Shown here: one piece after another, positions 21,696 to 33,140 of the stretch
Layout of the letters: each line of letters starts with the position of its first letter
How positions within the stretch are numbered: the stretch's first letter is position 1
Assembly: GCA_947452925.1 (NCBI GenBank)
Contig: CANGFK010000007.1
Location: 1 to 34,215, forward strand
Reading direction: 5' to 3'
Source of the DNA: Chitinophagaceae bacterium
GTDB lineage: Bacteria > Bacteroidota > Bacteroidia > Chitinophagales > Chitinophagaceae
DNA length: 34,215 nt
Translations under genes and position numbers: made by a program
Notes under the pieces: model-generated
Told to the model about the DNA's origin: nothing
Databases searched by the model: none
The model's input: the letters and a program-made list of their open reading frames with translations, nothing else

Positions 21696-21978
21696 GCGTT
21701 AAAATTAAAAGAAATGCTTGTTAAAATGGCTCAAAAGTTTTATTAGACGGTAAGTGGTAGGAATTTTACTTAGATATAAAACCTTAGAATTTATCATAAA
21801 ATAAATTACTAGCTATTGTTCCTGTTTTTTGCCTAAACCTTCTTGTAATCTTCTTCTGATAGTCAAGTCTTTGATTAGATGATTAGATGCAACCTTCTTG
21901 ATGAAATTGGTTTTTATCCCTTAAAACAGAGTTTTATAATCAATAAAAAAGATTTTATTTTCATAAAAAAACTTACAT

Positions 21979-22103
21979 AATGAAAATAAATAGTTTTTCA
22001 TTCATTATTTAATGTTTAATAATCATTATAAATAAATTAATAATGGAAATAAAACTTTTAAAATGAAAATAAAACAATTAATAATGAAAATAAAATTGGA
22101 AAA
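21979..22103. repeat. AT-rich degenerate array with about 21-nt pitch upstream of the galactose genes
   Basis: AATGAAAATAAA at 21979, AATGGAAATAAAAC at 22042, AATGAAAATAAAAC at 22062, AATGAAAATAAAAT at 22083; offsets 63, 20, 21; inverted copy TTTTATTTTCAT at 21953-21964. Confidence 0.65.
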
Positions 22104-28732: not shown

Positions 28733-29488
28733 TTAAATATTCAAACCACCACAAGCACTTATCACCTGTCCGGTAATATAGCTACTCAAATCGCTGGCTA
28801 AGAATAAAGTGGTGTTTGCAATTTCTTCACTCTTACCAAAACGTCCCAAAGGAATCTTCTTCAAGAATTCAGCAGCACCCGGTCCGTCTTGCAAATAATG
28901 TGTCATATCTGTCTCTACAAATCCTGGAGCAATCGCATTGCAACGAACATTACGGCTTCCAAGTTCGGCAGCAATAGATTTTGTAAATCCAATGATACCT
29001 GCTTTACTCGCGGCATAACTACTCTGTCCTGCATTTCCCCTGATGCCAATAATAGAACTCATGTTGATGATACTTCCGGACTTTGCCTTCATCATTGGTT
29101 TGATTACTTGTTTAGTGATGTTAAATACACTCTTCAGGTTAATATCTATCACTTCATCCCATTGTTGTTCGGTCATGCGAAGCAGCAAATTATCTTTACT
29201 GATACCAGCATTGTTCACACAAATATCAATAGTACCAAACTCCTTCAACACCTCATTTATAAAGGTTTCTGCTTGTGTAAAATCAGCTGCATTACTCTTG
29301 TATGCCTTTGCTTTTACACCTAGTCCTTGCAATTTTGCTTCCAGAGCAGCTGCTTTTTCTGCACTACTATCACTCACATAAGTAAATGCCACAGAAGCAC
29401 CTTGTTCTGCCAATTTCAATGCTATTGCTTCTCCTATTCCACGTGCTGCGCCAGTAACGATGGCAACTTTGTTTTCTAATAATTTCAT
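28733..29488 (-). CDS. fabG: 3-oxoacyl-ACP reductase FabG
   Basis: SDR motifs VTGAARGIGEAIA, NNAGISKDNLLLRM, SSYAASKAGIIGFTKSIAAEL, RCNAIAPGFVETDMT. Confidence 0.94.
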   Translation of the reverse strand: MKLLENKVAIVTGAARGIGEAIALKLAEQGASVAFTYVSDSSAEKAAALEAKLQGLGVKAKAYKSNAADFTQAETFINEVLKEFGTIDICVNNAGISKDNLLLRMTEQQWDEVIDINLKSVFNITKQVIKPMMKAKSGSIINMSSIIGIRGNAGQSSYAASKAGIIGFTKSIAAELGSRNVRCNAIAPGFVETDMTHYLQDGPGAAEFLKKIPLGRFGKSEEIANTTLFLASDLSSYITGQVISACGGLNI

Positions 29489-29511: not shown

Positions 29512-29519
29512 CAAATATA
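29512..29519 (-). promoter_or_regulatory. Bacteroidetes-type -7 element TATATTTG for fabG
   Basis: CAAATATA on + strand, 24 nt upstream of the fabG start. Confidence 0.45.
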
Positions 29520-29619: not shown

Positions 29620-29808
29620 GGACTTGCCCGATTTCTTTGCGGGCAAGAAGAATTTCCTTCTGGGCAAACCAAATAGTTCTGCGGGCAAGCAAATAATTGT
29701 TTAGGGCATGCCCTATTAGTTTGGGGGTAGGCAATTAGTTCTTCTGGGTGTACCCTCCAAGACTGCGGGTATGCCTTTAATCATTTTGGGATAGTTAATT
29801 ACTCATCG
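29620..29808. repeat. Degenerate tandem array, 9 units x 21 nt, consensus-like GGGCAAG(N14)
   Basis: Units start at 29620, 29641, 29662, 29683, 29704, 29725, 29746, 29767, 29788 with no indels; GGG(C/T)A/T-type start in 8 of 9. Confidence 0.88.
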
Positions 29809-29844: not shown

Positions 29845-29852
29845 TACTTTTG
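29845..29852 (+). promoter_or_regulatory. Bacteroidetes-type -7 element TACTTTTG upstream of the LptF/G-like gene
   Basis: TAnnTTTG match 41 nt before GTG 29893. Confidence 0.35.
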
Positions 29853-29892: not shown

Positions 29893-31338
29893 GTGGTAAA
29901 AAAATTAGACATATTAATCATAAAATCTTTCATAGGGCCATTCATTGCCACCTTTCTCATTGCCATGTTTATATTGGTGATGCAGTTTTTTTGGCTGTAT
30001 ATAGATGATCTGGTAGGAAAGGGGCTAGATATTTTAACCATCTTGCAATTGATTGTTTATGTGGCTGCCAACGTAATTCCATTGGCATTGCCCATTGCAT
30101 TATTGCTTTCCTCCATCATGACGTTTGGTAATTTGGGAGAAACTTTCGAAATAGTCGCCATCAAATCTGCGGGCATTTCATTGTTGCGTTTTATGCGACC
30201 ATTACTGATTGTCACGCTTTTTATCAGTGGGATAGCCTTTTTGTTTTCAAATAACATCATCCCGGTTGCACAGTTAAAATTGGCCACCATCAAGTATAAT
30301 ATCATCGTTTCCAAACCTTCTTTCGACATTAAAGAAGGGGTGTTTTATGATAAGATTGAAGGCTATGTGATTAAATTGGGCAAGAAAGACAAAGACGATA
30401 GCACCATTCATGATATTGTGATTTATGAACGGAATTATAACCTTCAAGACAACTTGCTCATTGCAAAAGATGGGGTGATGCGGGTAACACCGGACAAGCA
30501 ATTTTTGGAATTCGTCATGAATGATGGCGTACGATATACCGAAAAAGGGATGCGGATGAGTGCAAATACCGAGTTTGTTCGGAATGGATTTAAGCAATAT
30601 AAAAAAGTATTTGACCTGAAGAGTTTTGGATTGAATAATACCCAGGACAGTGCTTTTAAGTACGACCCCAAAATGCTCAGTATCCGGCAATTGAATATGA
30701 TGATAGATTCATTGCACAAGAACGACAGCTTTTTTGTGAGGAGGGTTGGGTTAGAAATGAACCCCTCGCTTCAGTTTACTAAATATTCAGATACAGGCTG
30801 GGTAAACACTAAACCAGTACCAACAAAGGCAAAATCTTTTGCGGCTGAAATACCAGATTCCATAAGACAGATTGTTTACGACAGAAGCCTCAATCAGGTA
30901 ACAAGCGCGAAGGCCTCCATTTCGATGATAATGGAAGACTACAAAAGGCAACAAAAAACATTGAGTTCTCATAAGATTGAGTGGCATAGGAAATTTACTT
31001 TGTCGGTAGCTTGTTTTGTGTTGTTTTTGATTGGAGCTCCGTTGGGTGCCATCATCCGGAAAGGAGGTTTGGGTGCGCCATTGGTATTTGCCATTGCCTT
31101 TTTTGTGGTCTTTCACCTGCTGAATACTTTTGGCGAACGTCTTGCCCACGAAGCAGTACTCACTGTTTTTGAAGGGATGTGGCTATCGACAATGGTGCTG
31201 ATTCCGGTGGGTGTTTTTTTGACGTATAAGGCCATGCACGATTCGCAATTATTTAATTCGGAGGCTTATTACCGAATTTTTAGTACGATAAAAAGATTTG
31301 TAGGTAACTTTCGCTTTTCTAAATCATCTTTAAAATAA
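29893..31338 (+). CDS. LptF/LptG family LPS export permease (GTG start)
   Basis: MVKKLDILIIKSFIGPFIATFLIAMFILVMQFFWLYIDDLVGKGL...VIPLALPIALLLSSIMTFGNLGETFEIVAIKSAGIS; C-terminal TM block GAPLGAIIRKGGLGAPLVFAI. Confidence 0.92.
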   Translation: MVKKLDILIIKSFIGPFIATFLIAMFILVMQFFWLYIDDLVGKGLDILTILQLIVYVAANVIPLALPIALLLSSIMTFGNLGETFEIVAIKSAGISLLRFMRPLLIVTLFISGIAFLFSNNIIPVAQLKLATIKYNIIVSKPSFDIKEGVFYDKIEGYVIKLGKKDKDDSTIHDIVIYERNYNLQDNLLIAKDGVMRVTPDKQFLEFVMNDGVRYTEKGMRMSANTEFVRNGFKQYKKVFDLKSFGLNNTQDSAFKYDPKMLSIRQLNMMIDSLHKNDSFFVRRVGLEMNPSLQFTKYSDTGWVNTKPVPTKAKSFAAEIPDSIRQIVYDRSLNQVTSAKASISMIMEDYKRQQKTLSSHKIEWHRKFTLSVACFVLFLIGAPLGAIIRKGGLGAPLVFAIAFFVVFHLLNTFGERLAHEAVLTVFEGMWLSTMVLIPVGVFLTYKAMHDSQLFNSEAYYRIFSTIKRFVGNFRFSKSSLK

Positions 31339-32270: not shown

Positions 32271-32365
32271 ACAGGGTTCTGGTTGCAGTTTACCAGTAAC
32301 TTGTATCTTGTAACCTGCAACTAGAACCCTGTAACTAGTAATTTGTAACCTGTATCTTGCAACTA
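32271..32365. repeat. Degenerate heptanucleotide array (GTAACYT-like), partly inverted, abutting the downstream start codon
   Basis: ...GTAACTT GTATCTT GTAACCT GCAACTA GAACCCT GTAACTA GTAATTT GTAACCT GTATCTT GCAACTA; inverted arm ACAGGGTTCTGGTTGCAG (32271-32288) versus CTGCAACTAGAACCCTGT (32315-32332). Confidence 0.8.
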
Positions 32366-33018: not shown

Positions 33019-33140
33019 ACCTTGATTTTATGAAAACATACCTTTTCATGTTTTTGACAAACCATTATGAATTATTGACAAACCATTGTGTTTTTCACTA
33101 TCCATTATGGGTTATCGACAAACCATTGAGAAAAGGGGGG
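33019..33140. repeat. Degenerate tandem array with 21-nt pitch, unit about ACCATTATGAATTATTGACAA
   Basis: Unit starts ACCTTG 33019, ACCTTT 33040, ACCATT 33061, ACCATT 33082, TCCATT 33101, ACCATT 33122 (offsets 21, 21, 21, 19, 21). Confidence 0.75.

Follow-up and report, generated by a model that had tools for sequence, protein, structure and literature searches.

The gap between a fabG-like gene and an LptF/LptG-like gene of a Chitinophagaceae bacterium contains tandem units that follow one another at an unbroken 21-nt pitch while most of their letters vary. The question raised by this locus is what such a repeat is kept for, if it is the spacing rather than the sequence that persists. The locus lies in a stretch of 34,215 nucleotides (hereafter the window), which is contig 7 of an assembly whose nearest relatives are Chitinophagaceae MAGs. 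A preliminary description had held that the spacing is constant while the sequence is free, and this view is borne out by the comparisons reported here.

Periodicity of the fabG-lptF Array

The array occupies positions 29620–29808 and consists of nine 21-nt units without a single indel, the unit starts keeping a constant 21-nt register (29620, 29641 ... 29788). Autocorrelation of base identity gives 0.45, 0.54, 0.43 and 0.55 at lags of 21, 42, 63 and 84 nt, against ~0.24 elsewhere. The top periodicity score of the gap (z = 11.7) exceeds all 150 scores obtained from dinucleotide-shuffled versions of that gap (mean 3.2, maximum 5.65), confirming the nine indel-free units of the preliminary description. 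The array went undetected by Tandem Repeats Finder even with the threshold set to its minimum. Because the 42-nt signal is stronger than that at 21 nt, the units partly alternate in an A-B manner. Eight of the nine units are GGG-led, as described earlier; the first (GGACTTGCCCGATTTCTTTGC) is led by GGA, and the earlier account, which took all units to begin with GGG, had spelled out eight only. It had also limited conservation to the first seven bases, which is contradicted by column 8 (high) and column 19 (invariant); columns 1 and 2 are likewise invariant and columns 3 and 7 highly conserved.

The unit can be written as a degenerate dyad, GGGYAWGCCC, followed by an A/T-rich stretch that carries the invariant T at position 19. 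The dyad core of unit 5 (GGGCATGCCC, positions 29704–29713) is a perfect palindrome and that of unit 7 (GGGTGTACCC, positions 29746–29755) an imperfect one. The left neighbor is a fabG-like 3-oxoacyl-ACP reductase gene on the minus strand (28733–29488; an ORF with sister orthologs 92–98% identical), and the right neighbor is a plus-strand gene for an LPS export permease of the LptF/LptG family (29893–31338; PF03739, E = 7.6e-73). The consensus of the Bacteroidota -7 box is TAnnTTTG, and putative boxes of this type were found on either side of the array, one for fabG (TATATTTG, 29512–29519, minus strand) and one for lptF (TACTTTTG, 29845–29852, plus strand). The array thus lies between two predicted divergent promoters, as had been proposed, with 36 bases separating its end from the lptF box, on the upstream side of that box.

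A minus-strand heptapeptide reading had been put forward as well, and on this basis the array might be a degraded gene that once encoded a heptapeptide repeat: 21 is divisible by three, and one minus-strand frame repeats over a short stretch. Each of the six frames over the array, however, contains two to four stops, arrays of the same class with 41- or 43-nt units (see below) cannot code, and nearly all arrays are intergenic. We attach a negligible probability to a coding origin.

Two other repeats of similar period were seen in the window. At 33048–33127 there is a second array of ~21 nt, with four copies of a TTGACAAACCATTATGAATTA-like unit at irregular pitch; it is shorter than is typical and scores under the threshold of the genome scan. 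A/T-rich repeats of 20–21 nt (TTAATAATGAAAATAAAACAA) lie at 22016–22095 and 21922–21970 in a long intergenic gap, where low complexity hampers judgement.

A Genome-wide Class of Arrays with a Constant Pitch

The genome-wide scan for 21-nt autocorrelation that had been suggested covered 1.21 Mb (36%) of one fragmented MAG (3.37 Mb assembled in 416 contigs), with simple ORFs as gene calls and hand-chosen thresholds. Scan windows with z > 8 were most frequent at a lag of 21 nt (n = 59), followed by 42 (n = 21), 41 (n = 10) and 43 (n = 2), with few at other lags, and block-shuffled DNA gave zero such windows with 21-nt-type periodicity. Merging them yielded 85 arrays, which corresponds by simple proportion to an estimated ~240 in the whole genome. 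The fabG-lptF array is therefore no local peculiarity but one of this estimated number, in a class specific to the genus. Array length peaks at 8–10 units (median 8.8, quartiles 8.1 and 10.1); arrays of fewer than 7 units are very rare, and shorter scan windows added just a handful of short ones. The regularity of the arrays ranges widely, from about ten copies of CTCGTTCTATCTTACGAGGTG at one extreme to worn arrays like that of fabG-lptF at the other. Phase slips were found in 7 of the 85 arrays (669 unit junctions, mean unit identity of ~65%), a count that is a lower bound and partly built in, since the search needs an unbroken pitch. A minority of arrays are built of 41- or 43-nt super-units and so depart from 21.0.

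The unit sequences of 72 arrays with periods of 21, 22 or 42 nt fall into 15 families and 35 singletons. Pairwise similarity of the array profiles has a median of 0.277 compared with 0.278 after shuffling, most pairs being at the shuffled level, and no motif is common to most of these 72 arrays. With ~50 unrelated unit sequences in 72 arrays, the constant feature is the pitch. The fabG-lptF array belongs to the largest local family (n = 6), together with L021:2706, L118:1659, L133:7289, L139:9260 and L144:2255, and the family consensus is approximately GGG(G)-N3/4-CCC(C) followed by ~11 A/T-rich bases. The genes beside this GGGG-CCCC family encode LptF/FabG, LpxB, PyrF, a CNNM/CorC protein and others without a Pfam match. 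Given that these adjoining genes are unrelated, we rejected a single regulon for the family; the two or three lipid A/LPS-related genes among them are suggestive, no more.

Some further repeated elements were noted. A 41-nt family (TCCTAAAGCGTTATCTAGTCA...) occurs at L116:10540, L149:2155 and L145:12610 and in one sister genome, with some units occupying several loci. At L119:2649, L006:6286 and L126:2351 the orientation of the units flips in mid-array, as if half of the array had been inverted. Dispersed short REP-like repeats at L105:16549–16650, L105:4900–4970 and L105:19705–19775 have many matches, on both strands and in both sister genomes, and are distinct from the 21-nt arrays. The window also encodes a 224-aa protein (MAVTRDWIPKQIDKF..., 769–1443), which appears to have paralogs elsewhere in the sampled genome, making up a family of three; one copy lies at L112:10297–10971.

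Position of the Arrays Relative to Genes and Promoters

Seventy-two of the 75 arrays that could be placed are intergenic, lying in tandem (44), divergent (25) or convergent (3) gaps, and convergent gaps are depleted of arrays (Fisher p = 0.002). Of 93 intervals that separate an array from a gene start, 36 contain a TAnnTTTG box, compared with 7 when the wrong strand is read; the box is found in none of 37 intervals that run from an upstream stop codon to an array, and within the arrays themselves in 1 of 72 cases. These counts place the arrays upstream of promoters, the fabG-lptF array included, and where the neighbors are divergent, their predicted transcripts do not include the array. Array and -7 box are separated by 26 to 800 bp (median 171), and this distance shows no helical phasing. 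Array-promoter spacing is thus arbitrary, and a direct activator working at a fixed or phased distance is unlikely.

The arrays could still be classical operators, with every unit family recognized by a separate dimeric transcription factor, sequence-specific and in control of the gene downstream. Their position upstream of promoters would suit this, as would palindromic cores of 14–20 bp, some of which are common to several loci. Such operators are difficult to reconcile, however, with ~50 unit types in 72 arrays and no matching regulator family among 973 ORF products, with unrelated genes behind one family (LptF, LpxB, PyrF and the CNNM/CorC protein), with a promoter distance that is neither fixed nor phased, or with orthologous promoters at which the units have been replaced (see below). 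We consider this explanation improbable.

Dyad Symmetry, Folding and Curvature

The unit consensus is more dyad-symmetric than column-permuted controls at p ≤ 0.05 in 47 of the 85 arrays (Wilcoxon ~2e-13), and another measure agrees. The arms do not covary within units, their complementarity being 0.658 as compared with 0.664 ± 0.006 after unit shuffling (z = -1.0), in a test to which low-variation arrays contribute little power. No mirror fold-back signal was found at the level of the array. Dyads without covariation or fold-back fit half-sites that are read independently by a dimer, and not a selected hairpin.

The same data bear on a possible role of the arrays as folded RNA or as hairpins extruded from the DNA, for instance as a terminator, an sRNA sponge or a supercoil buffer. 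Enrichment of dyads is compatible with such a role; the fabG-lptF array folds better as single-stranded DNA than its shuffles (z -2.4), and transcription is known for the 52-nt repeats that Bacillus coagulans has of the related class (PMC8625621). In addition to the absence of intra-unit covariation and of fold-back, however, the arrays have no credible match in Rfam, fall outside the predicted transcripts of divergent neighbors and are depleted at convergent gaps, where 3' ends meet. A hairpin or RNA element is accordingly very improbable.

Phased curved DNA would have A/T tracts in phase at 10.5 bp. Such phasing is weakly above chance here (half-period power of 0.73 compared with 0.52 when permuted, p = 0.035), and base identity has no 10.5-nt sub-period, lags 10 and 11 being under expectation. 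Two helical turns as the reason for a value of 21 are plausible but unproven.

Orthologous Sites in Sister Species and Taxonomic Range

Comparison of the orthologous fabG-lptF gaps, which had been named at the outset as the test able to overturn the claim of constant spacing, revealed no broken pitch. An array with 21-nt pitch is retained there in both sister genomes, G006 (genome of L022) and G010 (genome of L023). The units are GGGTAGACAATTAGTCTTTCC-like in G006, where the final three still match the window, and CGGCAAGCCGTAATCTTCTCC-like in G010, where the sequence is different from that of the window. Across all sites compared, the array is present at six and absent at five in G010, and at four of these six (the window, L003:19243, L106:9970 and L106:15967) the unit has been replaced with pitch and size retained. 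The sites compared in G006 include five with a clear array, one with a weak array and three with none. For sites L011 and L114 the assessment relies solely on how far apart the BLAST pieces lie. Nine G010 sites are not plainly conserved, and re-lettered arrays occupy four of them; by our own arithmetic, this would have a probability of roughly 0.01–0.03 on the assumption that arrays are present in ~10–15% of gaps. Between species, arrays carry 9 indels per 188 substitutions and flanking noncoding DNA 18 per 193, a two-fold difference only.

The array trait is confined to one genus. In pieces sampled regardless of arrays, 15 arrays occur in 313 kb from the same genus and 0 in 345 kb from eight genomes of other genera; G012 has zero arrays in the 40 kb sampled. 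Among 80 lptF neighborhoods, most of the arrays are found at the eight loci with the highest identity, the remaining 72 showing only scattered periodicities that are weaker or different.

Arrays are gained and lost among the sister species, with the flanks almost touching each other, as would also be expected of neutral or selfish satellites, generated by a replication, repair or amplification process ruled by 21 nt and surviving upstream of promoters, where they do least harm, with no host function. Same-unit families at separate loci point the same way, a flank being shared once (L119:13313 and L136:2678), as do the arbitrary promoter distance and the lack of a partner protein among the 973 ORF products, and the avoidance of the interval from promoter to gene could reflect simple purifying selection. 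Simple slippage, however, should leave many arrays of 3–6 units, of which very few were seen, and the RAYT transposase family PF01797 is unenriched in the genus. Satellites also leave unexplained the dyad symmetry, the depletion at convergent gaps and the in-place replacement of units at orthologous sites with pitch and size constant. We rank this explanation close behind the scaffold proposed below and regard it as nearly as likely.

A Proposed Scaffold for a Symmetric DNA-binding Protein

Our preferred reading, to which we would give a probability of about 40%, is that an array works as an architectural element of the DNA, a scaffold that offers two-turn sites to a symmetric DNA-binding protein of low specificity. 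About nine weakly symmetric sites, 21 bp or two helical turns apart, would lie on one face of the helix, and a symmetric (dimeric) protein of low specificity would occupy them and polymerize on, or wrap, the DNA upstream of the promoter. Selection would then maintain pitch and symmetry and set a lower limit to the number of sites, and the letters could turn over through unit duplication and conversion inside each array. The comparisons above show the pitch, the narrow size range, the promoter-upstream position, the excess of dyads, the re-lettering in place and the restriction to one genus, and the few phase slips also favor this reading; protein binding, polymerization and an effect on neighboring genes are what we infer.

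Several of our results weaken the scaffold reading. No expanded family of DNA-binding proteins was found among the 973 ORF products, the distance to the promoter is arbitrary, and the array is dispensable at some sites, because some sister sites are without it. With ~50 unit types, a scaffold would call for many different proteins, or else for a single protein almost devoid of specificity. The 41- and 43-nt super-units, the weak phasing of A/T tracts and a deficit of indels that is no more than two-fold also count against it. More doubtful is a genus-wide chromatin-like code, in which promoters would carry sequence-free arrays of about nine two-helical-turn units that are recognized via periodicity and symmetry alone and whose letters could be swapped wholesale.

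Sequence-free bacterial repeats of constant length have already been described and are still unexplained. This lineage offers test material, with arrays mapped relative to promoters, close species that have the array, lack it or have it re-lettered, and a sharp genus boundary. Our data suggest that it is the regular spacing, and not the letters, that is read by the cell. If spacing is the signal, this would be a mode of DNA recognition seldom considered for bacteria, and if it is not, the arrays point to some new mutational process that measures out 21 nt.

Comparison with Known Repeat Systems

Plasmid iterons and partition-site arrays are direct repeats of roughly 20–22 bp in helical register. 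Unlike these, the present arrays are chromosomal, number an estimated ~240 per genome and have units that vary by locus, and no initiator or partition gene lies beside the fabG-lptF array. The arrays resemble REP and BIME elements in being short intergenic palindromes that are multi-copy and sometimes clustered. They differ from them in that the unit sequence is unshared across most loci, the tandem arrangement is strictly 21 nt and RAYT genes are unenriched in the genus. Mobilization of the RAYT/REP type was rejected, as PF01797 counts in the genus are no higher than outside it and the units are unrelated between most loci.

Tandem arrays of the heptamer TAACTGA are known from Beggiatoaceae, Cyanobacteria and some Bacteroidetes (PMC4679880). 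Heptamer arrays and the cyanobacterial STRR share with our arrays an intergenic location and a short period, but heptamer arrays have a period of 7 and repeat one invariable heptamer close to start codons, whereas the arrays described here have a period of 21 and a free sequence. Arrays of 7 nt are present in this genome too, as at 32296–32364 of the window (ten copies, GTAACTT / GTAACCT), and a 14-nt (2 × 7) signal was seen in arrays at L016:7961, L153:9721, L117:18441 and L138:11491. The heptamer arrays are a separate intergenic class within this genome, comparable to the TAACTGA arrays.

An earlier survey of constant-size repeats by Subirana and Messeguer reportedly appeared in J. Bacteriol. 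in 2020. These authors have described bacterial tandem repeats of constant size (20–23 or 52 nt) and variable sequence, for which they suggested a polymerizing protein and left the function open (PMC8161180, doi 10.3390/ijms22105373). The class is reported from Bacillus and several other groups. Shared with its 20–23-nt members are noncoding arrays of ~21 nt, a constant unit length, many families per genome, a species- and locus-specific sequence and a scattered taxonomic occurrence. In our material the constant unit length is seen in the lags at z > 8, there are several families, the arrays are noncoding, and the sequence is species-specific in that four orthologous sites are re-lettered, others being kept. 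For one Bacillus, PMC8161180 reports a short sequence common to most repeats of the species, without naming it as a criterion of the class; our arrays have no such motif, which we treat as a difference and not as a bar to membership. The literature searched describes no such arrays in Chitinophagaceae or Bacteroidetes, and PMC8161180 is silent on promoters and upstream position as well as on palindromes and orthologous sites. Placement upstream of promoters, dyads without covariation and replacement with the pitch retained appear to be additions to the class, and a minimum of ~7 units and highly degenerate arrays are further differences. We file the arrays with the class of Subirana and Messeguer, as a variant that has these further properties.
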